From contig NZ_CP015091.1 of the NCBI RefSeq assembly GCF_001975705.1, positions 62,001 to 126,000 of the forward strand: a stretch of 64,000 nt of DNA, in the 5' to 3' direction. Numbering within the stretch: the first letter of the stretch is position 1; each line of letters opens with the position of its first letter. Below are positions 36,258-64,000 of the stretch, in pieces. A model generated the notes under the pieces. The model did no database searches and was not told the origin of the DNA. It worked only from the letters and a program-made list of their open reading frames with translations. A program made the translations under genes and the position numbers. This DNA comes from Salipiger abyssi. Its GTDB lineage: Bacteria > Pseudomonadota > Alphaproteobacteria > Rhodobacterales > Rhodobacteraceae.

Positions 36258-36260
36258 GCC

Positions 36261-42099: not shown

Positions 42100-42116
42100 C
42101 AGGGGCTCAGCCCCTG
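42100..42116. terminator. Short hairpin between convergent tetR and IMPase-family genes
   Basis: CAGGGGCT-C-AGCCCCTG includes the stop codon of the minus-strand gene. The loop is too tight for the outermost form, so a 7-bp stem with a 3-base loop is more realistic. It is weak as a terminator. Confidence 0.35.
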
Positions 42117-48037: not shown

Positions 48038-48915
48038 CGCTGGACGAGGCCATTCACCGCGCGCTGAGCTTGCCGATCTGGCGCGATCCGCAGAACGCCC
48101 AGGCGCTCAGCGGCGGGATCACCAATCACAATATCCGCCTGAGTGATGCCGGCCGCGATTACGTGGTGCGGGTCGGCGGGGACATCCCCGTGCATCAGGT
48201 GATGCGCTTCAACGAGCTCGCCTGTCACCGCGCCGCGCATGCGGTCGGCCTGTCACCCGCCATCGTGCATGCGGAACCGGGCATCCTCGCCATGGATTTC
48301 GTGCCGGGCCGGGCGCTGACCGAAGCGGATATCCGCGACCCCGACACGCTTGCCCGCGTCCTGCCGCTGCTCAAGCGGCTGCACCGCGAGGGGACACGGC
48401 AGCTACGCGGTCCGGTGCTGATGTTCTGGGTCTTTCATGTGGTGCGCGATTACGCCGCCACCCTGCGCGATGCGGGCTCGCCGCATGTGCCGTCGCTGCC
48501 GGAATTCCTCGAAATCGCCGAGGCGCTTGAGGCGGCGGTCGGGCCGGTGGAGGTGGTGCTGGGCCACAACGACCTACTGCCCGCCAACCTGCTCGATGCG
48601 GGCGACCGGATGTGGCTGATCGACTGGGACTACGGCGGGCTGAATTCGCCGCTCTTCGATCTCGCGGGGCTTGCCTCCAATGCCGGGCTCGACGCGGCGC
48701 AGGAGCGCGGGCTGCTCGCCGACTACTACGGCAAACCCGCCGACGATACGCTCTGGCGCGCCTATGCGGCAATGAAATGCGGCTCGCTGCTGCGCGAGAC
48801 GATGTGGAGCATGGTGTCCGAGCTCCACTCGGAAATCGACTTCGACTACGCCGCCTATACGGCGGAAAACCGGGCCCGGCTCGCCGCCGCGCTCAAAGAC
48901 TTCGAACGTTTGTGA
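48034..48915 (+). CDS. Choline/ethanolamine-kinase-like phosphotransferase
   Basis: A 293-aa protein kinase-like fold member; ATG 48034 overlaps the permease stop, and the longer frame is a shadow. The catalytic loop is GHNDLLPANLL (His178, Asp180, Asn185). The metal site is LIDWDYGGLNSPLFDLAGLASN (Asp197), both in the form found in choline/ethanolamine kinases (HNDLLxxN and IDxEYxGxNxxxFDLA). The N-terminal SGGITNHNIRL is the nucleotide-loop region. Being in the transporter operon and just ahead of the demethylase, it probably phosphorylates the imported amino alcohol, or a homologue of it. It may also trap it or direct it to lipid synthesis. Betaine itself lacks a hydroxyl group, which argues that the importer carries an alcohol amine. 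Confidence 0.78.
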   Translation: MTLDEAIHRALSLPIWRDPQNAQALSGGITNHNIRLSDAGRDYVVRVGGDIPVHQVMRFNELACHRAAHAVGLSPAIVHAEPGILAMDFVPGRALTEADIRDPDTLARVLPLLKRLHREGTRQLRGPVLMFWVFHVVRDYAATLRDAGSPHVPSLPEFLEIAEALEAAVGPVEVVLGHNDLLPANLLDAGDRMWLIDWDYGGLNSPLFDLAGLASNAGLDAAQERGLLADYYGKPADDTLWRAYAAMKCGSLLRETMWSMVSELHSEIDFDYAAYTAENRARLAAALKDFERL

Positions 48916-48922
48916 GGATCTT

Positions 48923-51373
48923 ATGACCGACTTTCCGACCAGCGCCAAAGCCGTGATCATCGGCGGCGGCATCGTGGGCTGCTCGACAGCCTACCATCTG
49001 GCCAAACTGGGCTGGACCGAGGTGGTCCTGCTCGAACGCAAGAAACTGACCTCGGGCACCACCTTTCACGCCGCCGGGCTGGTGGGGCAGCTGCGCTCGA
49101 ACGCCAATATCACCCAGCTTCTGGGCGAGTCGGTGAAGCTTTACCGCACGCTCGAAGAGGAAACCGGGCTCGGCACCGGCTGGAAGATGAATGGCGGTCT
49201 ACGGCTGGCCTGTAACGAGGAGCGTTGGACCGAGGTCAAGCGTCAGGCCACCACCGCGCGGTCCTTCGGGCTCGACATGCAGCTGCTGACGCCCTCCGAG
49301 GCCAAGGAGCTCTGGCCGCTGATGACCACCGACGACGTGGTGGGCGCGGCCTATCTGCCGACCGACGGGCAGGCCAACCCCTCCGACATCACCCAGGCGC
49401 TGGCCAAGGGCGCGCGCATGTCTGGGGCGAAGATCTACGAGGACACCAAGGTGCTGGAGATCGACCTCCAGGACGGGGTGATCAAGGGGGTGAAGACCGA
49501 GAAGGGCTATATCGCCTGCGAAAAGGTCATCGTCTGCGGCGGACAGTGGACCCGCGATTTCGCCAAGACCGTGGGGGTGAACGTGCCGCTGGTGCCGGTG
49601 GAACACCAGTACATGGTGACCGAGCGCATCGACGGCGTGACCGGCGATCTGCCCACCCTGCGCGATCCCGACCGGCTGACCTATTACAAGGAAGAGGTCG
49701 GCGGGCTGGTGATGGGCGGCTACGAGGCCAACCCGATCCCCTGGGCGATGGACGGCATCCCCAAGGGCTTTCACTACACGCTGCTGAGCTCGAATTTCGA
49801 CCATTTCGAGCAGCTCATGGAGCTGTCGCTGGGCCGCGTTCCCGCGCTCGAAAGCGCCGGGATCAAGGAGCTGGTGAACGGCCCCGAGAGCTTTACGCCC
49901 GACGGCAATTTCATCCTTGGCGAGGCGCCGGAGCTGAAGAACTTCTTCGTCGGCGCGGGCTTCAACGCTTACGGCATCGCCGCCGGCGGTGGCGCCGGCA
50001 TGGCGCTGGCGGAATGGGTGGCCAATGGCGAGCCGCCCTTCGATCTCTGGCCGGTGGATATCCGCCGTTTCGGCCGGCCGCATTTCGATACCGACTGGGT
50101 GCGCACCCGCACGCTGGAGGCCTATGCCAAGCATTACACCATGGCCTGGCCCTCCGAAGAGCACAGCTCGGGCCGGCCCTGCCGCAAGTCGCCGCTCTAC
50201 GACACGCTGAAGGCCAACGGCGCCTGTTTCGGCGAAAAGCTCGGCTGGGAACGGCCCAACTGGTACGCGGATCTGTCGGCGGGTGAGGAGGCACGGGACA
50301 TCTACACCTATGGCAAGCCCAACTGGTTCGACGCCGTGGGCCGCGAGCACAAGGCGGCGCGCGAGGCGGCGGTGCTTTACGACCAGACCTCCTTTGCCAA
50401 GTTCATCCTCAAGGGGCCGGACGCGGAAAAGGCGCTGAGCTGGATCGCCGCCAATGACGTGGCCAAACCGGTGGGCGGGCTGATCTACACCCAGATGCTG
50501 AACGACCGGGGCGGGATCGAATGCGACCTGACCTGCGTGCGCACCAGGCAGGACGAATATTACATCGTCACCGGCACCGGCTATGCGACCCATGATTTCG
50601 ACTGGATCGCCCGGAACATCCCCGCCGATTGCAACGCGCAGCTCGTGGATGTGACCTCGGCCTATGCGGTGCTGTCGCTGATGGGGCCGCGTGCCCGCGA
50701 CATCCTCTCGGCGGTCACCCGCGACGACGTGTCGAACGAGGGCTTCAAATTCGGCACTGCCAAGACCATCGGCATCGCCGGCTGCCCGGTCAACGCGCTG
50801 CGCGTCACCTATGTGGGCGAGCTGGGCTGGGAGCTGCACCTGCCGGTGGAATATGCCACCACGGTCTATGCCGCGCTGAAACAGGCGGGCGCCGCGCATG
50901 GGTTGATCGACGCGGGCTACCGCTCGATCGAGAGCCTGCGGCTGGAGAAGGGCTATCGCGCCTGGTCGGGCGAAATCGGCCCGGATTACACACCGATGGA
51001 AGCCGGGCTCGGCTGGGCCTGCAAGCTGCGCAAGAATATCCCCTTCAAGGGGCGCGAGGCGGTGCAGGCGCAGAAGGACGGCGGGGTAAGCAAGATGCTC
51101 GCCACCTTTACCACCGACGACCCCGACACGATCATCTGCGGTCGCTCGACGATCTTCCGTAATGGCGAGCGGGTCGGCTATCTCGCCTCCGCCGGGTTCG
51201 GCTACACGCTGAACCAGTGGATCGGCTACGGCTATGTCCGCTCCGACACGCCCATTGATGCCGACTATGTGCTGTCGGGCGAATACGAGCTCGAGGTCGC
51301 GACCAAGCGGGTGCCCTGCAAGGTGCATCTGGCGCCGCTCTTCGATCCCAAGATGGAACGGGTCAAATGCTGA
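48923..51373 (+). CDS. Dimethylglycine/sarcosine dehydrogenase-like FAD + GcvT fusion enzyme, copy 2
   Basis: An 816-aa protein. FAD domain: AVIIGGGIVGCSTAYHLAKLG (residues 10-30) and TSGTTFHAAGL with His49, matching the flavinylated-His motif STWHAAGL of mammalian DMGDH more closely than copy 1 does. Residues about 425-816 form the GcvT-type folate domain (YTQMLNDRGGIECDLTCVR; YVGELGWELHLPVEYA; SIESLRLEKGYRAWSGEIGPDYTP). It is followed by its own etfB, etfA, folD and purU, so the electron and C1 exits are fully provided. The sequences of copies 1 and 2 differ clearly in the FAD domain, implying a different N-methyl substrate for this copy. Confidence 0.85.
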   Translation: MTDFPTSAKAVIIGGGIVGCSTAYHLAKLGWTEVVLLERKKLTSGTTFHAAGLVGQLRSNANITQLLGESVKLYRTLEEETGLGTGWKMNGGLRLACNEERWTEVKRQATTARSFGLDMQLLTPSEAKELWPLMTTDDVVGAAYLPTDGQANPSDITQALAKGARMSGAKIYEDTKVLEIDLQDGVIKGVKTEKGYIACEKVIVCGGQWTRDFAKTVGVNVPLVPVEHQYMVTERIDGVTGDLPTLRDPDRLTYYKEEVGGLVMGGYEANPIPWAMDGIPKGFHYTLLSSNFDHFEQLMELSLGRVPALESAGIKELVNGPESFTPDGNFILGEAPELKNFFVGAGFNAYGIAAGGGAGMALAEWVANGEPPFDLWPVDIRRFGRPHFDTDWVRTRTLEAYAKHYTMAWPSEEHSSGRPCRKSPLYDTLKANGACFGEKLGWERPNWYADLSAGEEARDIYTYGKPNWFDAVGREHKAAREAAVLYDQTSFAKFILKGPDAEKALSWIAANDVAKPVGGLIYTQMLNDRGGIECDLTCVRTRQDEYYIVTGTGYATHDFDWIARNIPADCNAQLVDVTSAYAVLSLMGPRARDILSAVTRDDVSNEGFKFGTAKTIGIAGCPVNALRVTYVGELGWELHLPVEYATTVYAALKQAGAAHGLIDAGYRSIESLRLEKGYRAWSGEIGPDYTPMEAGLGWACKLRKNIPFKGREAVQAQKDGGVSKMLATFTTDDPDTIICGRSTIFRNGERVGYLASAGFGYTLNQWIGYGYVRSDTPIDADYVLSGEYELEVATKRVPCKVHLAPLFDPKMERVKC

Positions 51374-51466: not shown

Positions 51467-52225
51467 ATGAAGGTACTCGTGCCCGTAAAACGTGTGATCG
51501 ACTACAATGTGAAGGTCCGCGTCAAGCCGGACGGCAGCGGTGTCGATCTGGCGAACGTCAAGATGTCGATGAATCCGTTCGACGAGATCGCGGTGGAAGA
51601 GGCGATCCGCCTGAAGGAGGCCGGCAAGGCCTCCGAGGTGATCGTCGTCTCCATCGGTGTGAAACAAGCGCAGGAGGTGCTGCGCACGGCGCTGGCCATG
51701 GGCGCCGACCGGGCGGTTCTGGTGACGGCTGCCGAGGATGTGCATACCGATATCGAGCCGCTGGCGGTGGCCAAGGTCCTGGCGAAGATCGTCGAGGAAG
51801 AGCAGCCCGGGCTGGTGCTCTGCGGCAAGCAGGCCATCGACAACGACCTGGGCGCCACCGGCCAGATGCTCTCGGCGCTGCTCGGCTGGTCGCAGGCGAT
51901 GTATGCCAACAAGGTGGATGTCGAGGACGGCAAGGCCGTGGTGACCCGCGAGGTCGATGGCGGGCTTCAGACCGTCCGGGTGGCCATGCCGACGGTCATC
52001 TCGACCGATCTGCGGCTGAACGAGCCGCGCTATGCTTCGCTGCCCAATATCATGAAGGCGAAGAAAAAGCCGCTCGACGAAAAGACCGCCGCCGATCTCG
52101 GCGTCGACGTGGCGCCGCGGCTGGAAATCGTCAGCACCGGCGAACCGGCGGAACGCGCCGGCGGGATCATCGTGAGCTCGGTCGACGAGCTCTTGGCGAA
52201 ACTCAAGGACGCAGGAGCTGTGTGA
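51467..52225 (+). CDS. etfB: Electron transfer flavoprotein beta subunit, copy 2
   Basis: A 252-aa protein with a very strong AAGGAGG ribosome-binding site. It starts [19 protein letters not shown] and contains [75 protein letters not shown] and [11 protein letters not shown]. It is closely similar along its length to copy 1 (25463-26212) and has the same neighbour set, so it pairs with the second demethylase. Its stop overlaps the etfA start region (TGATG). Confidence 0.93.
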
Positions 52226-53154
52226 TGTCCGTTCTTCTGATTGCCGAACTCACCGATGGGGTGCTGGCCACCGATGCGACCGCCAAGGCGGTCAGCGCCG
52301 CGCAAGGTCTGGGCGAGGTCACCGTACTGGCCGCCGGGGCCTCGGCCCGCGCGGCGGCGGAAGAGGCCGCCGGGATTGCCGGTGTGACCAAGGTCCTGGT
52401 TGCCGAAGATGCGCTTTACGGCCATCGCCTGGCAGAGCCCGTGGCGGCGCTGATCGTGTCGCTGGCGCCGGGCTACAGCCATATCGTGGCGCCGGCCACC
52501 ACCGATGCCAAGAACATCCTGCCGCGCGTCGCGGCGCTGCTGGATGTGATGGTGCTGACCGATGTGACCGCCGTCGTCGATGCCGACACGTTCGAGCGAC
52601 CGGTCTATGCGGGCAATGCCACGCAGACGGTTCGTTCCTCGGACAGCACCAAGATCATCACCTTCCGAACCGCGAATTTCGACGCGGCGGCGGGCGGTGG
52701 CGCGGCCCCGCTCGAGGATGTGGCGGCGGCGCCGGATCCGGCGCTGTCGGAATGGATCGAGGACAAGGTGGCCGAGAGCGACCGCCCGGAACTGACCTCT
52801 GCCGGCATCGTCGTGTCCGGCGGTCGTGGCGTGGGCTCCGAGGACAGCTTTACGCTGATCACCGCGCTGGCGGACAAGCTGGGCGCTGCCGTTGGTGCGT
52901 CGCGCGCGGCGGTCGACAGCGGCTTCGCGCCGAACGACTGGCAGGTCGGTCAGACCGGCAAGGTGGTGGCGCCGGATCTCTATATCGCCTGCGGCATCTC
53001 GGGCGCGATCCAGCACCTCGCGGGGATGAAGGACTCCAAGATCATCGTCGCGATCAACAAGGACGAGGAGGCGCCGATCTTCCAGGTGGCCGACTACGGC
53101 CTCGTGGCGGATCTGTTCGACGCGGTGCCCGAGCTGACAGGAAAGCTGGGCTGA
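52225..53154 (+). CDS. etfA: Electron transfer flavoprotein alpha subunit, copy 2
   Basis: A 309-aa protein. ATG 52225 is preceded by AGGAG; a GTG one codon upstream is an alternative. Typical motifs are [67 protein letters not shown] (the FAD-binding block) and [22 protein letters not shown]. It forms the ETF heterodimer with the preceding subunit and completes the electron path from the second DMGDH-like enzyme to the quinone pool. Confidence 0.93.
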
Positions 53155-53155: not shown

Positions 53156-54058
53156 ATGACGGCCCAGCGTATCGATGGCAAGGCGCTGGCCGCGCGGTTG
53201 CAGGAGACCGTCGCGGCCCGCACCGCCGGGCTCGGGGCAACGCAGGGTCTGCGCCCCGGGCTTGCGGTGGTGCTGGTCGGCAGCGACCCCGCAAGCCAGG
53301 TCTATGTCCGTAGCAAACGCCGCCGCACGGCGGAGGCGGGCATGCAGTCCTTTGCCCACGAGCTGCCCGAAGACACGGGCGAGGCGGCGCTGCTGGAGCT
53401 CATTGCGCGCCTCAATACCGACCCCGCCGTGCACGGCGTCCTCGTGCAGCTGCCGTTGCCCGCGCATATCGACCCGATGCGGGTGCTGGCCGCCATCGAC
53501 CCCGCCAAGGATGTCGACGGCTTTCATGTGGTGAATGCCGGGCGGCTGGCGACGGGGCAGCCCGGGCTGGTGCCCTGCACACCGCTGGGCTGCATGATGC
53601 TGCTGCGCGAGCGGCACGCGGATCTTTCCGGGCTGCACGCGGTGGTGCTGGGTCGCTCCAACATCGTCGGCAAGCCCATGGCGCAGCTGCTGCTGGCGGA
53701 AAACTGTACGGTGACCGTGGTGCACAGCCGCAGCCGGGATCTTCCGATGCTCTGCCGCCAGGCGGATATCCTCGTCGCCGCCGTCGGTCGTCCCGAGCTT
53801 GTCCGGGGCGACTGGATCAGGCCCGGCGCCACGGTGATCGACGTCGGCATCAACCGGGTCGTTCGGCCGGATGGTACGGCGCGGCTCATCGGCGATGTCG
53901 CCTTTGACGAGGCGGCGGCGGTGGCCGGGGCGATCACGCCGGTGCCCGGCGGCGTCGGACCGATGACCATTGCCTGCCTGCTGGCCAATACACTGATCGC
54001 GAGTTGCCGGCAGGCCGGCCTGCCGGATCCGGATCTGACCCCGGCACCTGGCGCCTGA
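53156..54058 (+). CDS. folD: Bifunctional methylene-THF dehydrogenase / methenyl-THF cyclohydrolase, copy 2
   Basis: A 300-aa protein one base after etfA. Motifs: [13 protein letters not shown] with Lys54, [44 protein letters not shown], and [18 protein letters not shown]. Compared with copy 1, the His-Pro of DGLHP is replaced by His-Val, a small but visible divergence next to the active site. The gene oxidises methylene-THF delivered by the preceding dehydrogenase and hands 10-formyl-THF to PurU, encoded 41 bp downstream. Confidence 0.92.
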
Positions 54059-54099
54059 GCCCGCCGATCATCAGCCCATACCGAAGCAAGGACCGAAGC

Positions 54100-54990
54100 A
54101 TGAGCAAATACGCCCTTACCGTCACCTGCAAATCCACCCGCGGCATCGTCGCCGGGATCTCGGGCTTTCTTGCCGAGCAGGGGTGCCATATCACCGACAG
54201 TGCGCAGTTCGACGATGCCGAAACCGGCAATTTCTTCATGCGGATCAGCTTTTCGCCCGAAGAGGATGTCGCGGTTTCTCCGGATGGTCTGACCGAGACC
54301 TTCGGCGAGATCGCCAAGCGTTTTGGCATGACCTATCATTTCTTCTCGGAGACCGAGCGGATGAAGGTCATCGTCATGGTCTCGCGCTTTGGCCACTGCC
54401 TGAACGACCTGCTCTATCGCTGCCGCATCGGGGCGCTGCCAGTGGAGATCGTGGCGGTGATCTCGAACCACATGGACTATCAGAAGGTGGTGGTGAACCA
54501 CGACATCCCCTTCCACTGCATCAAGGTCACCAAGGAGAACAAACCGCAGGCCGAGCGCCGCATCATGGAGGTGGTCGAGGAAACCGGCGCCGAGCTGGTG
54601 GTGCTTGCGCGCTACATGCAGATCCTCAGCGACGAGATGTGCCAGAAGATGTCGGGGCGGATCATCAATATCCACCACTCCTTCCTGCCGTCTTTCAAGG
54701 GCGCGAACCCCTACAAGCAGGCGTTTGAGCGCGGCGTGAAGCTGATCGGCGCGACCTCGCATTACGTGACCGCCGATCTGGATGAAGGCCCGATCATCGA
54801 GCAGGACACGGTGCGGGTGACCCATGCGCAAAGCCCGTCCGACTATGTCTCTCTGGGCCGCGATGTGGAGGCGCAGGTGCTGGCCCGCGCAATCCACGCG
54901 CATATCCACCGCCGCGTTTTCCTGAACGGCAACAAGACGGTGGTGTTCCCGGCCTCGCCCGGTTCCTACGCCTCCGAGCGGATGGGCTAG
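54100..54990 (+). CDS. purU: Formyltetrahydrofolate deformylase, copy 2
   Basis: A 296-aa enzyme. I used ATG 54100 with a GCAAGGA ribosome-binding site; the longer frame starts inside folD. It is co-linear with copy 1: ACT domain (residues about 4-85), then VSRFGHCLNDLLYRC, FHCIKVT, ARYMQILSDEM, the catalytic NIHHSFLPSFKG and DLDEGPIIEQD. The DNA of the catalytic half is highly similar to copy 1. It recycles THF and releases formate, and it ends the proX-to-purU run of genes. Confidence 0.95.
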   Translation: MSKYALTVTCKSTRGIVAGISGFLAEQGCHITDSAQFDDAETGNFFMRISFSPEEDVAVSPDGLTETFGEIAKRFGMTYHFFSETERMKVIVMVSRFGHCLNDLLYRCRIGALPVEIVAVISNHMDYQKVVVNHDIPFHCIKVTKENKPQAERRIMEVVEETGAELVVLARYMQILSDEMCQKMSGRIINIHHSFLPSFKGANPYKQAFERGVKLIGATSHYVTADLDEGPIIEQDTVRVTHAQSPSDYVSLGRDVEAQVLARAIHAHIHRRVFLNGNKTVVFPASPGSYASERMG

Positions 54991-54993
54991 AGG

Positions 54994-55014
54994 CGGCGCC
55001 TGCGGCGCCGGGTT
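54994..55014 (+). terminator. Terminator after purU copy 2
   Basis: CGGCGCC-TGC-GGCGCCG stem-loop immediately after the stop codon, followed by GGTTT. The following bases (to about 55036, GAGTATTTGCGGAAAGATGA) look like a 3'-end tail that I recall being common after genes in roseobacters; that recollection was not checked. Confidence 0.6.
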
Positions 55015-55133
55015 TGAGTATTTGCGGAAAGATGAAGATGCAGGCGCGAGGTCCGGGTAAGTGCGCGATGTTGGATCATGTCTGCGGTGGCGTTGAGAAA
55101 CCTGTCCACATGACCGAAAATCTCGACATTTAG

Positions 55134-55169
55134 GTTGATTTATGTGGGAAATAGACTCAATATATCAAC
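55134..55169. promoter_or_regulatory. Candidate operator upstream of the amidohydrolase-GS-ALDH-ADH operon
   Basis: GTTGATTTATGT (55134-55145) is an exact 12-bp match to the element before proX (43797-43808), and the next six bases are also similar. ATCAAC at 55164-55169 forms an inverted pair with GTTGAT. The local sequence is unusually A/T-rich, as expected for a promoter. Confidence 0.55.
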
Positions 55170-55237
55170 AAAAAACAACGAATCCGCCATCGGATGCCAC
55201 ATCCGGACTGCGCGGTGCCACAGCGAGGAGTCCCATC

Positions 55238-55990
55238 GTGTTCCTGCCCCTGATCGAGGCGCGAGACGAGACCCGGCCATCGGCGAATGTGGTCGTGGTC
55301 TGTGAACATGCGTCGAACCATTTCCCCGAGGTCTTTGGCACGCTGGGTTTGGGCGAGGACGCACGGCGTGCGCATATCGCCTGGGATCCCGGCGCGCTTG
55401 GCGTGGCGCGGGCGATGGCGGCGGAGCTCAATGCCGATCTGGTGGCAGGCTCCGTGTCGCGCCTGATCTACGATTGCAACCGCCCGCCAGAGGCACCGAG
55501 CGCCTTTCCGGAACGCTCCGAGTTGTACGAGATTCCCGGCAACAGGGCGCTCTCTGAAGCCGACAGGGCCGAGCGCGCGGCGGCGGTCTATACGCCCTTC
55601 CGCAAGGCACTGGCCGCGCTCATGCAGGCGCGGGGGCAGGGGGTGCTGGTGACGGTTCACAGCTTCACGCCCGTGTATCAGGGCGTGCCGCGCGACTGCG
55701 AAATCGGCATCCTGCACGACCGCGACAGCCGGCTTGCCGACGCCTTGCTGTCGGACTGGCCCGGCGCCGCGCCCTGGCGCGCCACCCGCAACGCGCCCTA
55801 CGGCCCCGAGGATGGGGTGACGCACACGCTTGTCGAGCACGGGATTGCGCGGGACTGGCCCAATGTCATGCTGGAGATACGCAACGACCTGATCGCGAGC
55901 GAGGCCGCGCAATTGCAGGCCGGGCGCTTCCTTGCCCGGCGCATTGCCCTTGCCCTGCCCGCCATGAACGGAGGAGGCAACGATGCCTGA
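55238..55990 (+). CDS. N-formylglutamate-amidohydrolase-family zinc hydrolase
   Basis: A 250-aa protein. I prefer GTG 55238, which has GAGGAG eight bases upstream and starts just before conserved sequence; the ATG at 55142 lies within a probable operator and adds 32 unconserved residues. Family (PF05013-like) motifs: VVVCEHASNHFPE with His24, WDPGALGVA, SRLIYDCNRPPEAPS, VTVHSFTPVY, and the C-terminal MLEIRNDLI. The family hydrolyses N-formylglutamate to formate and glutamate in histidine degradation, but no other hut genes are present. It overlaps the next gene, a glutamate ligase, so it may instead hydrolyse a glutamyl or acyl amide made in this pathway. Confidence 0.75.
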   Translation: MFLPLIEARDETRPSANVVVVCEHASNHFPEVFGTLGLGEDARRAHIAWDPGALGVARAMAAELNADLVAGSVSRLIYDCNRPPEAPSAFPERSELYEIPGNRALSEADRAERAAAVYTPFRKALAALMQARGQGVLVTVHSFTPVYQGVPRDCEIGILHDRDSRLADALLSDWPGAAPWRATRNAPYGPEDGVTHTLVEHGIARDWPNVMLEIRNDLIASEAAQLQAGRFLARRIALALPAMNGGGNDA

Positions 55991-57344
55991 CGACAAACTC
56001 GAAGACCTGAGGCAGAAGGCGAGCACCGGTGAGATCGACACTGTGCTTGTCTGTCTGGTGGACATGCAGGGGCGGCTCATGGGCAAGCGCTTTCATGTGC
56101 AGAACTTTCTCGACCATGCCCATGCCGAGACCCATTGCTGCAACTACCTGCTGGCGACCGATCTCGAGATGGCCACGCCCGAGGGCTATCGCGCCACGTC
56201 CTGGGAATCCGGCTATGGCGATTACACCATGCGGCCCGATGCGAGCACGATCCGCCCGCTGCCCTGGCTTGAGGGCACGGCCATGGTGCTCTGCGACCTG
56301 GAGGATCACGAGGCGCATGCGCCAGTGGCCCACGCGCCCCGGCAGATGCTGAAGGGCCAGATCGCAAGGCTGGCGGAGAGGGGGCTCGCGCCGATGATGG
56401 CGACCGAGCTGGAATTTTTCCTCTTCGAGGGCACCGCGCGGGAGAACCGCGAGGCGGGGTTCCGCAATCTGCGCCCGCATGTGGAGCACAACCAGGATTA
56501 CGCGATCCAGCTCAGCACACGCGACGAGGTGGTGATGCGCCCGCTGCGCAACATGCTCTACGCCGCCGGGATCGAGGTGGAATGCTCCAAGGGCGAGGCG
56601 GAGACCGGGCAGGAGGAGCTGAACCTGCGCTATCAGGATGCGCTGAGCTGCGCCGATTACCACACCATCGCCAAGCACGCGGCCAAGGATATCGCCGCCG
56701 CGCAGGGGCTGACTGCCAGCTTCCTGCCGAAATGGCACGCGGACAAGGTGGGCTCGGCCAGCCATGTGCATTGCTCGCTGTTCCGCGACGGGGAGAACGC
56801 CTTTCACGATCCCGCCCGGCCGATGGGGAAATCCGCGCTGATGGATCATTTCGTGGCCGGGCTGCTGAAATACGCCCCCGATTACACCGTGTTCCTGGCG
56901 CCTTACGTCAACAGCTACAAGCGCTTCCGCAAGGGGACGTTCGCGCCGACCAAGGCGGTCTGGTCGGTCGACAACCGCACCGCCGGGTTCCGCATGTGCG
57001 GGGCGGGGACGAAGGGCGTGCGCATCGAGTGCCGGATCGGCGGCTCGGACATGAACCCCTATCTGGCGCAGGCGGCGATGCTGGCCGCCGGTCTCGCCGG
57101 GATCGAGGAAGAGCTGGCGCTGCCCGATCCGATCTCGGGCGACATCTATGCCAATGACGGCGCGGCGAACGTGCCGACCACCCTGCGCGAGGCCACCGAG
57201 ACGCTGCGCGGCTCGGCCATGCTGCGCGCGGCTTTCGGCGACGGGGTCGTCGATCATTACGCCCGCGCCGCCGAGGTCGAGCAGGAAGCGTTCGACGCGG
57301 CGGTGACGGATTGGGAAATCTCTCGTGGATTCGAAAGGTGCTGA
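55983..57344 (+). CDS. Glutamine-synthetase-like glutamate-amine ligase (GlnA/PuuA/GMAS-type)
   Basis: A 453-aa protein of the GS type-I fold. Visible active-site blocks are TELEFFLF (Glu142, Glu144), GEAETGQEELNLRYQDAL (Glu204 to Glu212), SASHVHCSLF with His261 in the ATP/ammonia region, NSYKRF, VDNRTAGFRM and RIECRIGGSDMNPYLAQAAML. The N-terminal loop QGRLMGKRF replaces the usual DGSSI loop of true glutamine synthetase, as in gamma-glutamyl-polyamine and gamma-glutamylmethylamide synthetases. It therefore probably ligates glutamate to an amine other than ammonia. It is in one operon with an amidohydrolase (upstream, overlapping), an aldehyde dehydrogenase (2 bp) and an iron alcohol dehydrogenase. 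Confidence 0.82.
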   Translation: MPDDKLEDLRQKASTGEIDTVLVCLVDMQGRLMGKRFHVQNFLDHAHAETHCCNYLLATDLEMATPEGYRATSWESGYGDYTMRPDASTIRPLPWLEGTAMVLCDLEDHEAHAPVAHAPRQMLKGQIARLAERGLAPMMATELEFFLFEGTARENREAGFRNLRPHVEHNQDYAIQLSTRDEVVMRPLRNMLYAAGIEVECSKGEAETGQEELNLRYQDALSCADYHTIAKHAAKDIAAAQGLTASFLPKWHADKVGSASHVHCSLFRDGENAFHDPARPMGKSALMDHFVAGLLKYAPDYTVFLAPYVNSYKRFRKGTFAPTKAVWSVDNRTAGFRMCGAGTKGVRIECRIGGSDMNPYLAQAAMLAAGLAGIEEELALPDPISGDIYANDGAANVPTTLREATETLRGSAMLRAAFGDGVVDHYARAAEVEQEAFDAAVTDWEISRGFERC

Positions 57345-57345
57345 C

Positions 57346-58722
57346 GTGACAGACCTGACTTGCATATCGCCCATCGACGGCAGCGTCGTGGCCACCCGCC
57401 CGACCCTCTCGCAAGCCGATGCGGAGGACGCCGCCCGGGCGGGCCGCGCCGCGCAGGCGGAGTGGGCGGCGCGCCCGATGGCGGAGCGGATCGCGCTGGT
57501 GCGCCGCGCCGTGGCCATCATCGGCGAACAGACCGACCGCATGACGCGCGAGCTGGCGCTGCAAATGGGCCGGCCGGTGCGCTATGGCGGCGAATTCGGC
57601 GGGTTCGAGGAGCGCGCGAGCTACATGTGCGACATCGCCGAGGAGGCGCTGGCGCCGCTGGTGGTCGAGGACGGCCCCGGCATCCTGCGCAAGATCGAAC
57701 GCGAGCCGCTGGGGCTCGTGCTGATCATCGCGCCGTGGAACTACCCCTATATGACGGCGATCAATGCGGTAGCGCCGGCGCTGGTCGCCGGCAACAGCGT
57801 GATGCTGAAACATTCCGAGCAGACGCTGCTGGTGGGCGAGCATCTGGCCGAGGCCTTCCACGCCGCCGGCGTGCCGGAGGCGGTGTTCCAGAACGTCTTT
57901 CTCGATCACGAAGCGACCGGCGCGCTGATCTCGGGGCGCGAGGTGGATTTCGTGAATTTCACCGGCTCCGTCGGGGGCGGGCAGGCGATGGAACGCGCCG
58001 CCGCCGGAACCTTCATAGGGGTTGCGACCGAGCTGGGCGGCAAGGATCCGGCCTATATCCGCGCCGATGCCGATCTCGACGCCGCCGTTGACGGGGTGAT
58101 GGACGGGGCGATGTTCAATTCCGGGCAGTGCTGCTGCGGGATCGAGCGGATCTATGTGCACGAAAGCCTCTACGACGCCTTTGTCGAGAAGGCGGTGGCG
58201 CTGGTACGGGGCTCGAAACTGGGCGATCCGCGCGAGGCAGAGACCACCATGGGCCCGATGGCGCATGTGCGCTTTGCAAGGGGCGTGCGCGCGCAGATCG
58301 ACGCCGCCGTCGCGGCGGGTGCGGTGGCGCATATCGACACCATGGAGGCGGATGACGGCGGCGCCTATCTGACGCCGCAGATCCTCACCGGTGTGACCCA
58401 CGAGATGGAGGTCATGCGCGAGGAAAGCTTCGGCCCGGTGGTCGGCATCATGCCGGTCAGCGACGATGACGAGGCCGTGCGGCTGATGAATGACAGCCGC
58501 TTCGGGCTCACCGCCTCGATCTGGACGACCGATGCCGAGGCGGCGGAGGCCATCGGTCGGCGGCTGCAAACCGGCACGGTTTTCATGAACCGCTGCGATT
58601 ATCTCGACCCGGCGCTGTGCTGGAGCGGCTGCAAGGATACCGGGCGCGGCGCCGGCCTGTCGCCGCTGGCCTATCAGGCGCTGACCCGTCCGAAATCCTA
58701 TCACCTGAAAAAGAAAGTCTGA
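57346..58722 (+). CDS. NAD(P)-dependent aldehyde dehydrogenase (GTG start)
   Basis: A 458-aa ALDH-superfamily enzyme. GTG 57346 comes 2 bp after the GS-like stop, with AAAGG upstream; another GTG 21 bp earlier is possible. Catalytic residues: WNYP (Asn132), TGSVGGG, Glu229 in TELGGKDP, and Cys263 in SGQCCCGIERIYV. EESFGPVVGIMPV is the C-terminal family block. It is somewhat short and lacks features specific to betaine aldehyde dehydrogenase (BetB). In the operon it would oxidise an aldehyde formed by the downstream alcohol dehydrogenase, possibly a gamma-glutamylated aminoaldehyde. Confidence 0.87.
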   Translation: MTDLTCISPIDGSVVATRPTLSQADAEDAARAGRAAQAEWAARPMAERIALVRRAVAIIGEQTDRMTRELALQMGRPVRYGGEFGGFEERASYMCDIAEEALAPLVVEDGPGILRKIEREPLGLVLIIAPWNYPYMTAINAVAPALVAGNSVMLKHSEQTLLVGEHLAEAFHAAGVPEAVFQNVFLDHEATGALISGREVDFVNFTGSVGGGQAMERAAAGTFIGVATELGGKDPAYIRADADLDAAVDGVMDGAMFNSGQCCCGIERIYVHESLYDAFVEKAVALVRGSKLGDPREAETTMGPMAHVRFARGVRAQIDAAVAAGAVAHIDTMEADDGGAYLTPQILTGVTHEMEVMREESFGPVVGIMPVSDDDEAVRLMNDSRFGLTASIWTTDAEAAEAIGRRLQTGTVFMNRCDYLDPALCWSGCKDTGRGAGLSPLAYQALTRPKSYHLKKKV

Positions 58723-58725
58723 GCC

Positions 58726-59874
58726 ATGACCCCGACTGCAAACTGGTCCTATCCCACGGCCATCCGCTTCGGTGCCGGGCGCATCAAGGAGCTGGCCGAG
58801 GCCTGCAAAGCCGCCGGCATCTCGCGCCCGCTGCTCGTCACCGACAAGGGCCTCGCGCCGCTGCCGATCACCGCGGGGGCGCTCGACGTGCTGGAGGGGG
58901 CGGGCCTTGGCCGCGCGCTCTTTTCCGAGGTCGATCCGAACCCGAACGAGAGCAACCTTGCCGAAGGCGTCCGGATGTTCCGCGAGGGCGGCCATGACGG
59001 GGTGATCGCCTTTGGCGGCGGCTCCGGGCTCGATCTGGGCAAGATGGTCGCCTTCATGGCGGGCCAGACCCGCCCGGTCTGGGATTTCGAGGATATCGGC
59101 GACTGGTGGACCCGCGCCGATGCCGATGCGATCCATCCCAATATCTGCGTACCGACCACCGCCGGCACCGGCTCGGAGGTCGGGCGTGCCTCGGTGCTGA
59201 CCAATTCCGAGACCCACGAGAAAAAGATCATCTTCCACCCCAAGGTGCTGCCCTCGGTGGTCATCGCCGATCCCGAGCTGACCGTGGGCATGCCGCAGCC
59301 GATCACCGCCGGCACCGGCATGGATGCGTTTGCCCATTGTCTGGAGGCCTATTGCTCGCCGCATTACCACCCGATGAGCCAGGGCATCGCGCTGGAGGGC
59401 ATGCGGCTGGTGAAGGAGAACCTGCCGCGCGCTTATGCGGATGGCGCCGATCTGGAGGCGCGGGCGCATATGATGTCGGCGGCGATGATGGGGGCGACGG
59501 CCTTTCAGAAGGGTCTGGGCGCGATCCATGCCATCAGCCACCCGGTGGGCGCGATTTACCACACCCATCACGGCACGACCAACGCCGCCGTCATGGCCCG
59601 CGTGCTCGATTTCAACCGTCCGGCCATCGAGGACCGGATCGCCATGGCAGCGCGCTATCTGGGCATTGACGGCGGGTTCGAGGGCTTCCGCGAGGCGGTG
59701 ACCGAGATGATCGCGGATCTGGGCATTCCCTCCAGCCTGAGTGGCCTCGGCATCGACACTCCCGATATCGACGCCATCCTGCGCGGCGCGCTCAAGGATC
59801 CCTCGACCGGTGGCAACCCGATCGAGATGACCGAGGAAAACACCCGGCCCCTGATCGAGGCCTGTTTCGACTGA
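58726..59874 (+). CDS. Iron-containing alcohol dehydrogenase
   Basis: A 382-aa group III ADH, 3 bp after the ALDH gene. Nucleotide motif [10 protein letters not shown] (residues 97-106) and TTAGTGSE (144-151). Metal ligands are Asp200 and His204 ([15 protein letters not shown]), His272 ([11 protein letters not shown]) and His282 (THHGTTNA). It should oxidise a primary alcohol to an aldehyde or reduce one in reverse. Paired with ALDH and a GS-like ligase, the sequence alcohol to aldehyde to acid on a glutamylated amino alcohol is plausible. It is the last gene before a 100-bp gap with a strong hairpin and then glyA copy 2. Confidence 0.9.
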
Positions 59875-59912
59875 CACGGGCCTGGCCCGGCTTTCCTTCC
59901 CCCGCCAGTCCC

Positions 59913-59940
59913 CCCCGGGCCCGCGACACGCGGCCCGGGG
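59913..59940 (+). other. Very strong GC hairpin upstream of glyA copy 2
   Basis: CCCCGGGC (C) CGCG-ACA-CGCG GCCCGGGG, 12 base pairs with one bulged C. It lies 35 bp before the glyA ATG and after the ADH stop, with no T-run. This may be an attenuator or a 3'-protective stem separating ADH and glyA messages. Confidence 0.5.
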
Positions 59941-59974
59941 CAGGGCCCGGCTGACCTTTTCCCAAGGAGACGAC

Positions 59975-61240
59975 ATGCTTGACCTGAGCAAGAGCGCCCC
60001 GATTTCCGACCCCGAGATCGCTGCTGCGATCGAGGCCGAGCTCGACCGCCAGCAGAACCAGATCGAACTGATCGCATCCGAGAATATCGTCTCGCGCGAC
60101 GTGCTTCTGGCACAGGGGTCTGTGCTGACCAACAAATATGCCGAAGGCTATCCGGGCAAGCGTTATTACGGCGGCTGCGAGCATGTCGACGTGGCCGAGA
60201 CGGTGGCGCTCGACCGGGTGAAAAAGCTCTTCGGCGCGGGCTTTGCCAACGTGCAGCCGCATTCCGGCGCGCAGGCCAACCAGGCGGTGTTCCTGGCGCT
60301 GCTGCAACCGGGCGACCGCATCATGGGCCTGAACCTCGCCCATGGCGGCCACCTCACCCACGGCTCGCCGGTCACCATGTCGGGCAAATGGTTCGACGTG
60401 GTCTCCTACGAGGTCGATGCCGACAGCCACCTGATCGACATGGAAAAGGTGCGTGAAAAGGCGCTGGAGACCAAGCCCAAGCTGATCGTCGCGGGCGCCT
60501 CGGCCTATCCGCGCAAGATCGACTTCGAAGGCTTCCGCAAGATCGCGGACGAGGTCGGCGCCTACCTGATGGTCGACATGGCGCATTACGCGGGGCTTGT
60601 CGCGGCGGGGGTCTATCCCGATCCGATGCCGCACGCCCATGTGGTTACCTCGACCACCCACAAGACGCTGCGCGGTCCGCGCGGCGGGATCATTCTGACC
60701 AATGACGAGGCGCTGGCGAAAAAGCTGAACTCGGCTGTCTTTCCGGGCAACCAGGGCGGCCCGCTGATGCATGTGATCGCCGCCAAGGCGGTGGCTTTCG
60801 GCGAGGCCCTGACGCCGGAATTCGGTGAGTATGCCCGTCAGGTCGTGATCAATGCGCAGGCCATGGCCGAGGAGCTGCGCGCCGGTGGTCTCGGCATCGT
60901 CTCGGGCGGCACGGACAGCCACATGGTGCTGGTCGATCTGCGGCCCAAGGGCGTGACCGGCAAGGTGGCCGAGATCGCGCTGGAGCGCGCGGGCCTCACC
61001 TGCAACAAGAACGCCATTCCCTTCGATCCGGAAAAGCCCTTTGTCACCTCGGGCATTCGTCTCGGCAGCTCTGCGGGCACCACGCGCGGCTTTGGCAACG
61101 CGGAATTCCGCAGCATCGCGCGGATGATCCTGTCGGTGATCGACGCGCTTGCCGCCCGGCCCGAGGGCGACAGCGAGATCGAGGCACAGGTGCGCGGGCA
61201 GGTGCGGTCGCTCTGCGACGCGTTCCCGATCTACCGCTGA
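59975..61240 (+). CDS. glyA: Serine hydroxymethyltransferase, copy 2
   Basis: A 421-aa SHMT with an AAGGAG ribosome-binding site. It has the same motif set as copy 1: [22 protein letters not shown] and [13 protein letters not shown] with Lys230. It converts glycine plus methylene-THF to serine for the following sdaA. The segment 60225-60573 is nearly identical at the DNA level to 35233-35581 of copy 1, while both ends of the gene are clearly diverged. This suggests conversion and not a recent whole-gene duplication. The gene completes the C1/serine outflow of module 2. Confidence 0.95.
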
Positions 61241-61243
61241 GCG

Positions 61244-62632
61244 ATGGTCGTTTCGGTCTTTGAGATCTTTAAGCACGGTATCGGCCCCTCGTCGTCGCAC
61301 ACGATGGGGCCGATGGTGGCCGCAGGGCGGTTTCTGGACGATCTGCGCGGTGGCGCGGAGCCGATCCCAGGGGCCGGCGCCCCGGCGGCGCTGCGTGTCT
61401 CGCTTCACGGCTCGCTGGCCTTCACCGGCAAGGGCCATCACAGCGACCGGGCGGTGATGCTTGGGCTGCTGGGCGCACGTCCCGAAACGCTCGATCCCGA
61501 CGCGGCGGAGGCCATGCTCGCGGCGCTGCACCGGGGCTGTCGGCTAACGCCCGACGCGCTGCCGCCGCTGGCTTTCGATCCCGCGCGGGATCTGGTCTTT
61601 GACTACGGCCCGCCGCTGCCCGGGCATGCCAACGGCATGATTTTCGAGGCCTTCGACGCGGCGGGGCGGGCCTGTCACCGCCAGACCTATTATTCGGTGG
61701 GCGGCGGGTTCGTGCAGACCGATGCGGAGCTTGCCGCGCCGCCCGCCGCCGCCTCGCAAGACCCGCTGCCCTATGCCTTCACCAGTGCCGCCGAGCTGCT
61801 GCGCCTCGGCGCACGCTCGGGCCTGAGCATCGCGCAGATGGCGCGTGCCAACGAGGAGGCGCTGCGGCGGGCGCGGATCGACGCGGAGATCGACACGATC
61901 TGGCAGGCGATGGACGCCTGCATCGACCGTGGTTTTGCGCGGGAGGGCGAACTGCCCGGCGGGCTCCGGGTGCGTCGCCGGGCGCGGGCGCTCTATCAGA
62001 GCTTGACCGAACAGCGCTTCTCCAACCGTCAGCTGCCGCATGTCGCCAATGAATGGCTCTCCGCCTACGCGATGGCGGTGAACGAGGAAAACGCCGCCGG
62101 CGGGCGGGTTGTCACGGCGCCGACCAATGGCGCGGCGGGCACCGTGCCGGCGGTGCTGCGCTACTGGGCCGATCATTGTGACGAGGCCAGCGCCGAGAAA
62201 CGCAGGATCTTTCTTTTGACAGCGGGGGCCATCGGCGGGCTGATCAAGCACAATGCCTCTATTTCCGGCGCCGAGGTCGGTTGTCAGGGCGAAGTCGGAT
62301 CCGCCTCGGCCATGGCCGCTGCCGGTCTCTGCGCTGTGCTGGGCGGCAGCAACGAGCAGATCGAGAACGCCGCCGAGATCGCGCTTGAACACCATTTGGG
62401 CATGACCTGCGATCCCGCCGCCGGGCTGGTGCAGGTGCCCTGTATCGAGCGCAACGCCATGGGCGCGATCAAGGCCGTCTCTGCCGCGGCGCTCGCGCTG
62501 CGCGCGGACGGTACGCATTTCAGGCCGCTCGACAACTGCATCCGGGTGATGCGCGACACCGGTCGGGACATGAGCGACAAGTACAAGGAAACCTCGACCG
62601 GCGGGATCGCGGTGAACCTGCCGGAATGTTGA
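61244..62632 (+). CDS. sdaA: L-serine ammonia-lyase (iron-sulfur type), copy 2
   Basis: A 462-aa enzyme starting 3 bp after glyA. It has [63 protein letters not shown], and [20 protein letters not shown] with cluster cysteines. The middle region (residues about 125-250) differs markedly from copy 1, while the C-terminal third is very similar. It yields pyruvate and ammonia from serine, as in module 1. Confidence 0.94.
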
Positions 62633-62645
62633 CGGGAGGGGCGTC

Positions 62646-63251
62646 ATGATCTGTCTGGATTTCGATGGGGTGATCGCCGACACGCTGGGTTTCTGGGACA
62701 GGTTGTGCCGTCAGGCGGCGGCTGAACAGGGCCTCGTGCTGCCGCGCGGGATGACACCTTTCGCCCGGCTCTGCCCGCTGACCTTTCTTCAGCTTGGCGC
62801 CGATCTCGGGCTCGATGCCGCCCGGTTCGACAAGCGTATGGCCGCGCTGTCTCTGGAGCAGGAGAGCGTGGCGGCGCCGTTTCCCGAAATGCCGGCGTGC
62901 CTCGAGACGCTCGCCGCGCTGGCGCCGCTTTGCGTGCTCAGCTCAAGCCGGACGGTCTTTGTCCGGTGGTTTCTGTCGCGTCACGGGCTCGACGGCCATT
63001 TTCGCGACGTGCTGGGCGGCGACCGCCACCCGGGCAAGGCGGCGGCGCTGCGAAGCATGCCGCAGGCGGTGCTGATGATCGGCGACGCCAAGAGCGATAT
63101 CGACGCGGCACGGCAGGCCGGGTTGCGCTCTGTCGGGGTGCTCTGGGGCTGGCAGGATCGAAGCATGCTGGAGGGGGCCGACTACCTGGCGGAGCGCCCG
63201 GAAGAGCTGCTGACCTTCGCCCGCGCCGCGCTGGCGGAGCCGCGCGGCTGA
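62646..63251 (+). CDS. HAD-superfamily phosphatase
   Basis: A 201-aa HAD-IA-like hydrolase, 13 bp after sdaA with a GGGAGGGG ribosome-binding site. The nucleophile motif is CLDFDGVIADT (Asp5 and Asp7), motif II is LSSSRT (Ser, residues about 98-103), motif III is the Lys in GKAAAL, and motif IV is MIGDAKSDIDAA. It resembles phosphoglycolate-phosphatase-type small-molecule phosphatases. Being last in the module-2 gene run, it may remove phosphate from a phosphorylated amino alcohol or another pathway intermediate. No substrate can be assigned. Confidence 0.82.
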   Translation: MICLDFDGVIADTLGFWDRLCRQAAAEQGLVLPRGMTPFARLCPLTFLQLGADLGLDAARFDKRMAALSLEQESVAAPFPEMPACLETLAALAPLCVLSSSRTVFVRWFLSRHGLDGHFRDVLGGDRHPGKAAALRSMPQAVLMIGDAKSDIDAARQAGLRSVGVLWGWQDRSMLEGADYLAERPEELLTFARAALAEPRG

Positions 63252-63290
63252 GCGGACATGGCCTGGCGCGCGCCTTGCCGGGGTTCTCGC

Positions 63291-64000
63291 TCAGGCCGCG
63301 CGTGCCGTCATCACCCGCAGCACGGTATCGAGAAGCTCCTGCCGGAAGAACGGCTTGGTAAGCACGGCGTCGAGTCCAATACGGCGCGCCTCTTCGGCGA
63401 CGGCATCTTTCAGGATCCCGCTATAGAGCAGAATGGGAAGCTGCGGGCGGTCCTGCCGAAGCGCCCGCGCCAGATCGACGCCGGTCATGCCGGGCATGGC
63501 GTAATCGGTGACGATCAGGTCATAGGCATCCCGACCGCGCACGCGAAAGGCGCTCAGCGCCTCGGCGGGGTCGGAAAAGCGCTCGACCTCGGCAAAGAGT
63601 TCGCGCAGCGCGAGTTCCGTGGTTTCGGCAAGTTGGTCTTCGTCATCCACCACCATGGCGCGTTCGAACCGTGCCGCGCGCGGCTGCTGCCGCGCGCCTG
63701 CCGGCGCCGCTGTGCCATCCGCGGCGCCCTCGTGTATCGGCAGGCAGATGGTGAAGCGGCTGCCCTCGCCCGGCGCGCTGCTCACCGAGAGGCTGCCGCC
63801 ATGGCTGGCGACGATCCCGTGCGCCAGCGTCAGGCCCAGACCGTGCCCGGTGCCCTTGGTGGTGAAAAACCCGTCGAAAATGCGCCGGCAGGTCGCCTCG
63901 TCCATGCCGGTGCCGGTGTCCGAGATCGACAGAGACAGGACGTCTCCGCCATCGGAATCCGGGCGGTGTTCACGCAGCAATGTAACCTCGATCCGCCCGC
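63291..64000 (-). CDS. Hybrid sensor histidine kinase / response regulator, C-terminal part (5' end beyond window)
   Basis: The frame is open to the last base of the window, with 236 codons including the stop. The visible part begins inside the HATPase_c domain: SLSISDTGTGMDEATCRRIFDGFFTTKGTGHGLGLTLAHGIV gives the G1 and G2 boxes, followed by GEGSRFTICLP. After a linker comes a receiver domain with acidic VVDDED, the phosphoacceptor Asp in LIVTDYAMPGM, the Thr/Ser region LLYSG and the Lys in LTKPF. This kinase-then-receiver order suits a soluble or PAS-containing hybrid kinase. It is convergent with the HAD gene; its input signal is unknown. Confidence 0.88.
   Translation of the reverse strand, partial: GRIEVTLLREHRPDSDGGDVLSLSISDTGTGMDEATCRRIFDGFFTTKGTGHGLGLTLAHGIVASHGGSLSVSSAPGEGSRFTICLPIHEGAADGTAAPAGARQQPRAARFERAMVVDDEDQLAETTELALRELFAEVERFSDPAEALSAFRVRGRDAYDLIVTDYAMPGMTGVDLARALRQDRPQLPILLYSGILKDAVAEEARRIGLDAVLTKPFFRQELLDTVLRVMTARAA

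Follow-up and report, generated by a model that had tools for sequence, protein, structure and literature searches.

We examined a stretch of 64,000 nucleotides of the Salipiger abyssi genome (contig NZ_CP015091.1, positions 62,001 to 126,000; hereafter the window), in which four genes on the forward strand at 55238-59874, all with open and intact reading frames, encode an amidohydrolase, a glutamine synthetase (GS)-like ligase, an aldehyde dehydrogenase (ALDH) and an iron-type alcohol dehydrogenase (Fe-ADH). The amidohydrolase gene (55238, or 55142, to 55990; FGase, PF05013, Pfam 6.8e-39), whose closest solved chain is 2odf, Atu2144 (E 1.3e-72), is predicted to code for a gamma-glutamylglycine amidohydrolase of the GGAH type. 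It overlaps by 8 bases with the ligase gene (55983-57344; Gln-synt_C, 3.2e-97), a predicted ethanolamine gamma-glutamylase of the ETAGA type. The ALDH gene (57325-58722; Aldedh, 3.9e-118), a predicted gamma-glutamylacetaldehyde-amide dehydrogenase, overlaps the GS gene when read from a GTG start, an alternative start just past the GS stop being possible, and is followed after 3 bases by the Fe-ADH gene (58726-59874; Pfam Fe-ADH, 2.3e-46), a predicted gamma-glutamylethanolamide dehydrogenase. The reading frames and Pfam assignments bear out the four tightly spaced or overlapping genes reported in an earlier, sequence-only reading of the window.

The predicted gamma-glutamylation module and its relatives

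The window holds genes of PF00120, PF00171, PF00465 and PF05013 together, the Pfam set listed for Chromohalobacter salexigens in Table 2 of a review (PMC9397018). On sequence evidence, the four genes correspond to the known ethanolamine gamma-glutamylation (Eto) module. The Eto pathway itself is not new, having already been described in Phaeobacter, which belongs to the same lineage, and in Chromohalobacter and Agrobacterium. The chemistry put forward in the sequence-only reading, namely the joining of ethanolamine to glutamate, the oxidation of alcohol and aldehyde and the release of glycine, agrees with the published descriptions (PMC10132767, PMC9397018). Its statement that no comparable route is on record for this lineage is not supported, as the same four functions, together with TRAP EtoVWX, are reported for Phaeobacter sp. 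MED193 (MED193_10026-10056; PMC10132767).

Residue F320 of the ligase aligns with the glutamate of the E327 flap (GYEAP), which is described as required by GS (PMC6529630); the protein thus lacks this mark of a true, ammonia-using GS. The earlier label of a 'PuuA/GMAS-type' ligase was right only in part, since the protein scored 215.5 bits against the gamma-glutamylputrescine synthetase (PuuA) model NF045547, with a curated cut-off of 650, and 247 bits against the type III ligase model, with a curated cut-off of 470. A ligase for methylamine (GMAS) or polyamines (PuuA) was rejected on account of these scores and because the alcohol dehydrogenase would be left without use. An AlphaFold model of the ligase, computed from a three-row alignment, reached a pLDDT of 35.

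We compared the module with six others, from Paracoccus, Marinovum, Ruegeria, Sinorhizobium, Aminobacter and Litoreibacter, the first five of which are annotated plasmid records. The identities to the window proteins were 48-58% for the amidohydrolase, 58-66% for the ligase, 63-72% for the ALDH and 70-75% for the Fe-ADH. Five of the six annotated plasmid records inspected carry the four genes in one cluster; the sixth, from Ponticoccus, matches the window only at GlyA/SdaA/PurU and has no module. A TRAP transporter accompanies three of the five plasmid modules and an amino-acid permease one, while one, beside bhcRABCD, has neither; the modules lacking TRAP are those of Aminobacter (L012) and S. 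meliloti (L011). Six further ligase loci were inspected, with 'EtoX' defined by similarity to the TRAP binding protein of Ruegeria sp. B32: the full set plus an EtoX-like gene was found in five (G063, G005, G094, G127 and G010), and the sixth (G100) has only ligase and Fe-ADH, without an EtoX-like gene. The congener G127 (L153) shows the form RpiR-FGase-EtoX-GS-ALDH-FeADH. A chance pile-up of genes was rejected, since the set is present in several genera. Ligase orthologues (E <= 1e-90) were found in 72 of 120 sampled genomes of the family.

In a ligase tree, from which the short or duplicate rows L080, L002 and L001 (the latter being the window's copy) were left out, the window ligase is nested among module ligases, within the branch associated with TRAP/EtoX-like genes and near L015 (G063) and L037 (G127), both of which stand beside EtoX-like genes. 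We considered whether the ligase might use another primary amine, such as 3-aminopropanol, methylamine or a polyamine, in which case the module would not serve ethanolamine. Sequence does not reveal the ligase substrate, and polyamine-type ABC importers stand beside some of the module relatives. However, each of the four proteins shares 48-75% identity with its counterparts in the six other modules, three of which have a TRAP importer, the EtoX of Phaeobacter binds ethanolamine, and neither polyamines nor methylamine call for an alcohol dehydrogenase; we regard another substrate as very unlikely.

Among these relatives, the module on plasmid pMET3 of Aminobacter sp. NyZ550 (L012) adjoins bhcRABCD, and the plasmid is typed as conjugative. 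The bhcRABCD genes, for glyoxylate/glycine use, are a natural outlet for the module's glycine there.

The kinase-demethylase unit and its apparent joining to the module

The genes upstream of the module begin, on the reverse strand, with an inositol-monophosphatase-family phosphatase (IMPase, 42107-42880), whose motifs are intact, and a DeoR/GlpR-type regulator (42877-43689, start estimated), which over 42979-43668 is 52% identical to its DeoR counterpart in the Ruegeria AD91A unit. On the forward strand follow an OpuAC-type substrate-binding protein (SBP, 43891-44835), an ABC ATPase of the betaine/proline/choline family (44958-45992; TIGR01186 above cut-off), the double permease of a choline-type ABC importer (45989-48037; TIGR03416, 376.7 bits, cut-off 363), a choline/ethanolamine-kinase-like protein (ChoK, 48034-48915; PF01633) and a DMGDH/SARDH-type, FAD- and folate-dependent demethylase of 816 aa (DMGDHL, 48923-51373). 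Between this group and the Eto module lie EtfB (51467-52225), EtfA (52222-53154), together an electron transfer flavoprotein (ETF), FolD (53156-54058) and the formyltetrahydrofolate (formyl-THF) deformylase PurU (54100-54990), whose reading frame opens at 54004 and whose homology to the congener G120 starts at 54100. Behind the module, also on the forward strand, are the serine hydroxymethyltransferase GlyA2 (59975-61240), 84% identical to GlyA1 at 34983-36257, the L-serine ammonia-lyase SdaA2 (61244-62632; TIGR00720 above cut-off) and a HAD hydrolase (62646-63251). All neighbours named in the sequence-only reading, from the importer to SdaA2, are present.

The HxDxxxxN motif and the following DxD/E motif were found in 66 of 66 ChoK relatives counted, two of 68 kinase loci having been left out as short or weak. 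The model of the window ChoK reached a pLDDT of 95.8, and in a Foldseek search ranks 1-46 of the 50 shown were choline/ethanolamine kinases (best E 1.5e-18), the first aminoglycoside-type kinase appearing at rank 47; the identity to the best match, 3dxq, is 26%. By its motifs and modelled fold, ChoK is a credible kinase with a predicted activity on choline or ethanolamine. The demethylase shows the four-domain plan of DMGDH/SARDH (DAO, FAO_M, GCV_T and GCV_T_C), with rat DMGDH 4p9s as its best solved match (E 6.4e-154), and in the tree the demethylases linked to ChoK group together (28 rows, SH-aLRT 97), apart from other paralogues. By short motifs, DMGDHL may resemble sarcosine dehydrogenase, and DMGDHL2, a paralogue, may resemble DMGDH. 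Aminoethylphosphonate-linked demethylases (L064, G031 and G100) were considered as sisters of the kinase-linked ones, a placement that would have spoken for a phosphate/phosphonate pocket, but the tree puts them elsewhere.

We scanned named genomes with the demethylase alignment and analysed the best 80 of at least 586 confirmed stretches; of these 80, 55 exceed 20 kb and the other 25 are shorter (cut). ChoK was found in 68 of these 80 loci, DeoR (at least 40% identity) in 37, the importer binding protein (at least 60%) in 35 and IMPase in 26; a second demethylase paralogue was present in 17, EtfB in three and aminoethylphosphonate genes in two, standing beside the unit in Sneathiella. The window IMPase is 44-65% identical to ten IMPase neighbours of other kinase-demethylase units and 36% identical to that of G162. 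The order seen in the window, with IMPase and DeoR on the reverse strand and SBP-ATPase-permease-kinase-demethylase on the forward strand, recurs elsewhere, for example, in Roseovarius halotolerans (L067) and Litoreibacter (L068). By these counts and gene orders, the importer-kinase-demethylase cluster is itself a conserved unit.

An Eto-kind ligase, amidohydrolase or Fe-ADH (at least 45% identity, within about 10 kb) was found in five of the 80 loci. The Litoreibacter locus (L068) carries Fe-ADH, ALDH, GS, FGase and DeoR, with the module genes convergent with the demethylase gene; Leisingera ANG59 (L080) shows demethylase-AraC-type-IMPase-FGase and the start of GS at the contig end, and a Roseovarius locus (L108) demethylase-IMPase-GS. 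A Salipiger locus (L115) has an Fe-ADH with 71% identity, and that of Kiloniella (L141), at 56%, is borderline and forms a long branch in the Fe-ADH tree. The ligases of the window and G120, of L068 and of L108 occupy three different places in the ligase tree: the window lies inside a 14-row set (96/96) that excludes L068 and L108, and L108 groups with Marinovum and Ruegeria (96/95). These placements suggest that the unit and the Eto module came together on more than one occasion. Separate joinings would be the simple reading, the alternative being one early joining followed by many losses.

Seven congeners carry a demethylase of at least 73% identity, and four of them (G120, G122, G132 and G137) were inspected. 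An Fe-ADH of the Eto kind lies directly behind the demethylase in G122, G132 and G137, and not in G120. The G132 Fe-ADH is identical to that of L115 and forms one branch with those of G122 and G137 (100/100). These observations bear on the possibility that Fe-ADH and ALDH oxidise a free methylated amino alcohol directly, in the manner of GbsB and betaine-aldehyde dehydrogenase acting on choline, with the ligase as a bystander. The window Fe-ADH does match the GbsB model, at 261 bits, below the cut-off of 550, and in G122 and G137 the Fe-ADH stands behind the demethylase in genomes without the ligase. This account is at odds with the complete, overlapping four-gene set retained in the window and with the position of the G122, G132, G137 and L115 branch among ligase-linked Fe-ADHs, which has modest support (88/85, not starred) in a tree that omits the Fe-ADH pieces of L153, and we consider it very unlikely.

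In G120, the ligase and the demethylase are 98% identical to those of the window and lie on two contigs. The demethylase contig stops 229 bases past the gene, in sequence resembling the beginning of the EtfB gene; the other contig, with the module, stops behind FGase and PurU, in sequence resembling the end of EtfA. Because the contig ends match in this way, the order demethylase-EtfBA-PurU-FGase-GS-ALDH-FeADH very probably continues across the assembly gap, without FolD there; the Fe-ADH is followed by DeoR, DMGDHL2 and a second kinase instead of GlyA2-SdaA2. The 1.4-Mb, low-GC genome G162 has kinase-demethylase-EtfBA at one place and EtoX-GS-FeADH beside an IMPase, 36-38% identical to that of the window, at another. 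Within about 21 kb, G100 brings together a demethylase of 49% identity, an IMPase, aminoethylphosphonate genes and a pair of ligase and Fe-ADH genes.

At L176 11295-13221 of G162, a streamlined genome, an Fe-ADH gene is located between the EtoX-linked ligase and the IMPase. An Fe-ADH plus ALDH in the SAR11 methanol gene region has been read as methanol oxidation (PMC3160333). This Fe-ADH plus ALDH may merit another look as an ethanolamine enzyme.

A candidate route from methylated ethanolamines to glycine

We propose, with a probability of about 0.6, that the Eto module is the lower half of a longer route leading from an imported N-methylated ethanolamine to glycine, serine and pyruvate. The gene identities, the kinship of the module, the conserved unit and the repeated linkage follow from the computations; all substrates, the order of the steps and co-transcription are inferred. 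The choline-type ABC importer would bring in an N-methylated ethanolamine (mono- or dimethylethanolamine), and the DMGDH/SARDH-type enzyme would move its methyl groups to folate, with ETF accepting the electrons, so as to give ethanolamine. The ligase would then join glutamate to ethanolamine at the expense of ATP; oxidation of the capped alcohol by Fe-ADH and ALDH would give gamma-glutamylglycine, which the PF05013 enzyme would cleave into glutamate and glycine. GlyA2 and SdaA2 may turn glycine plus a one-carbon (C1) unit into serine and then pyruvate, and FolD and PurU may dispose of surplus C1. The product side, from ethanolamine through glycine and GlyA2/SdaA2 to pyruvate, is better founded than the input side.

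A DMGDH/SARDH-type enzyme should require a secondary or tertiary amine, which makes choline an unlikely substrate and di- or monomethylethanolamine a likely one. For DMGDH, deprotonation of the amine and transfer to folate have been described (PMC5082570). If the proposed route operates, a function would follow for proteins now annotated merely as 'FAD-dependent oxidoreductase' and 'phosphotransferase'.

The kinase, the demethylase and the IMPase travel together and meet the Eto module, which suggests an order of steps involving a phosphate handle: ChoK might O-phosphorylate a methylethanolamine, demethylation might take place on the phosphobase, and the IMPase might remove the phosphate, leaving ethanolamine for gamma-glutamylation or EutBC. 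Several features point in this direction: the pairing of kinase and demethylase in 68 of the 80 loci, the IMPase in 26 of them and its place between the demethylase and the ligase (L108) or amidohydrolase (L080), the regulators of the DeoR type, a family in which phosphorylated ligands are often sensed, and the aminoethylphosphonate genes next to the unit in Sneathiella (two of the 80 loci). On the other hand, two kinases for two demethylases exceed the need of one linear route. We put this order forward tentatively, as possible but doubtful, and hold with equal reserve the variant in which DMGDHL2 would act on the tertiary and DMGDHL on the secondary amine, with ETF and folate. If this order is true, it would run phosphobase methylation backwards and give methylated headgroups a new path to glycine. 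Among the open-licence papers listed in the literature searches, no title or abstract opening describes a demethylation of O-phosphorylated methylethanolamines or a kinase-demethylase-Eto cluster, and these searches brought up no account of how bacteria use the partly methylated bases between ethanolamine and choline. Ethanolamine and choline headgroups are described as labile marine nitrogen and carbon sources (PMC10132767).

An explanation without such a route is that the demethylase is an ordinary sarcosine/dimethylglycine dehydrogenase, and that the cluster pools two parallel glycine-making pathways before GlyA2-SdaA2. The best solved matches of the demethylase, DMGDH and DMGO, and its kept His/Tyr region are consistent with this, as are the sox genes that are accompanied by GlyA-SdaA copies both in this window and in Ponticoccus, an Eto module adjoining soxB, soxA and soxG in G005 (L151), and the absence of the ligase from most demethylase carriers in the class sample. 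It leaves unexplained the kinase in 68 and the IMPase in 26 of the 80 loci, the way in which the IMPase lies between the demethylase and the ligase (L108) or amidohydrolase (L080), and the separate branch of the ChoK-linked demethylases. We judge it unlikely, though a serious contender. What we regard as new is that, in the sequences compared, the Eto pathway is repeatedly linked to a conserved importer-kinase-demethylase-phosphatase unit; the route from a methylated ethanolamine to glycine thereby becomes a directly testable candidate.

Genome-wide counts of ligase, demethylase and EutB were also assessed. In the family (120 genomes), the ligase was found in 23 of 25 demethylase carriers (at least 56% identity, among the matches listed) as compared with 49 of 95 others (p 1.6e-4). 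In a class sample of 387 genomes, 41 have the demethylase (E <= 1e-285), 51 the ligase (E <= 1e-120) and 11 both; the ligase thus occurs in 11 of 41 carriers as compared with 40 of 346 others (one-sided p 0.010), or in 10 of 40 when the own genome is excluded (p 0.021). EutB, the other enzyme for ethanolamine, was above cut-off in 10 of the 120 family genomes, with the ligase in two of these ten as compared with 70 of the 110 without EutB (Fisher two-sided p 0.014). In the genus (20 genomes), EutB was found in 14, seven of which have the ligase, and the six without EutB all have the ligase, so that none of the 20 lacks both. All eight demethylase carriers of the genus have EutB, including five without the ligase, as compared with six of 12 non-carriers; post hoc, this pattern fits ethanolamine as the product of the unit, taken on by either route.

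Several observations weigh against the proposed route. At the level of loci, 75 of the 80 demethylase loci have no module gene at the threshold used, and in other family genomes listed, demethylase orthologues (about 70-81% identity) stand at loci apart from the ligase, contrary to the earlier expectation of a conserved co-occurrence with DMGDH-ETF-FolD-PurU. The link to N-demethylation drawn in the sequence-only reading gains support from the repeated linkage; among the loci compared, only the window shows the four genes together with the whole DMGDH-ETF-FolD-PurU set. No plasmid record in the plasmid search covered at least 80% of window 54000-63500. At the level of genomes, none of the tests takes shared descent into account, the family link weakens when the demethylase is held to at least 70% identity (ligase in 15 of 17 as compared with 57 of 103, p 0.014), and in the genus it is reversed (ligase in three of eight carriers as compared with 10 of 12 others, p 0.06). 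Both family carriers without the ligase (G004 and G028) also lack EutB, 30 of the 41 carriers in the class sample lack the ligase, and no ligase at E <= 1e-90 was found in G122 and G137 despite their Fe-ADH.

Within S. abyssi itself, a full-length EutB gene lies on another contig (G000:C7:113697-114980), which means that an ethanolamine route is already present; by sequence, the genome has two ethanolamine routes, and an Eut-type metabolism inside the cluster was rejected, EutB being elsewhere. About 150-250 bases separate the end of PurU (54990) from FGase, leaving room for a separate promoter of the module, and contain one weak promoter-like match (one found in the stretch, 0.7 expected), for which reason co-transcription of the module with the upstream genes is only our inference. 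Lastly, the match of the window with MED193 and C. salexigens is one of gene set, gene order and kinship with other modules.

The surroundings hold further genes for related compounds. Just past the window, L041 (G000:C3:126001-145500) carries a second binding protein-ATPase-permease set, 42-50% identical to that of the window, a DUF1989 plus GCV_T protein, whose domain pair is that of TMAO demethylase, and genes for a response regulator and a DeoR protein, as well as DMGDHL2 together with another choline-kinase-like gene; the region looks like a methylated-amine catabolic island. Within the window, 29621-37673 holds soxB-soxA-soxG-glyA1-sdaA1, a parallel sarcosine cluster with its own copies of GlyA (84%) and SdaA (69%), and a further DMGDH-like reading frame lies at 20915-23545 on the reverse strand (29% identical to DMGDHL2 over 883 aligned positions). 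At 24500-26300, positions of about 24.6 and 26.1 kb match the EtfA/EtfB ends of the G120 contigs at 81-85%, and this segment probably holds a second ETF pair. DMGDH-like genes near AEPT-PhnA-PhnY were seen in L107, L125, L064, L146-L147 and L184, including Sneathiella and Sinorhizobium medicae; these are possible demethylases of N-methylated aminoethylphosphonate.

Comparison with known systems

The closest described system comes from Phaeobacter sp. MED193 (loci MED193_10021-10056), where the TRAP transporter EtoVWX and an RpiR regulator share an operon with four Eto enzymes, namely ethanolamine gamma-glutamylase, gamma-glutamylethanolamide dehydrogenase, gamma-glutamylacetylaldehydeamide dehydrogenase and gamma-glutamylglycine amidohydrolase (PMC10132767). 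The Eto proteins are reported to increase during growth on phosphoethanolamine, EtoX to bind ethanolamine with a Kd of 7.9 uM, and the authors describe a close relationship between these genes and the ones demonstrated for C. salexigens and A. tumefaciens C58 (PMC10132767). The window shares with MED193 the four functions and the order ligase-ALDH-ADH. Unlike MED193, the window copy has no EtoVWX TRAP transporter, the best EtoX match in its own genome having 28% identity (E 1.9e-16), and its FGase gene has no adjoining RpiR gene, a DeoR gene lying about 12 kb upstream instead; the Litoreibacter module likewise carries DeoR. It also differs in that the module stands inside an importer-kinase-demethylase-folate cluster. 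For C. salexigens, we take 5dm3, which the structure search gave only under the name 'L-glutamine synthetase', to be a protein of that organism.

The same steps have been proposed for the ethanolamine route of Streptomyces GlnA4, which shares with the window a GS-like ligase, an ALDH, a proposed hydrolase of the formylglutamate-amidohydrolase family and a nonpolar residue at the position of the E327 flap (PMC6529630). The GlnA4 cluster, from another phylum, differs in that its figure legend gives a short-chain dehydrogenase and a glutamine amidotransferase (PMC6529630). The ethanolamine ammonia-lyase EutBC acts on the same substrate as the Eto pathway by a different enzyme. Mammalian DMGDH/SARDH shares with the window demethylase the domain plan, the region of the flavin-linking His and the partners ETF and folate (PMC5082570), whereas the window demethylase is coupled to a choline/ethanolamine-kinase-like gene and an IMPase and belongs to a bacterial branch of its own.

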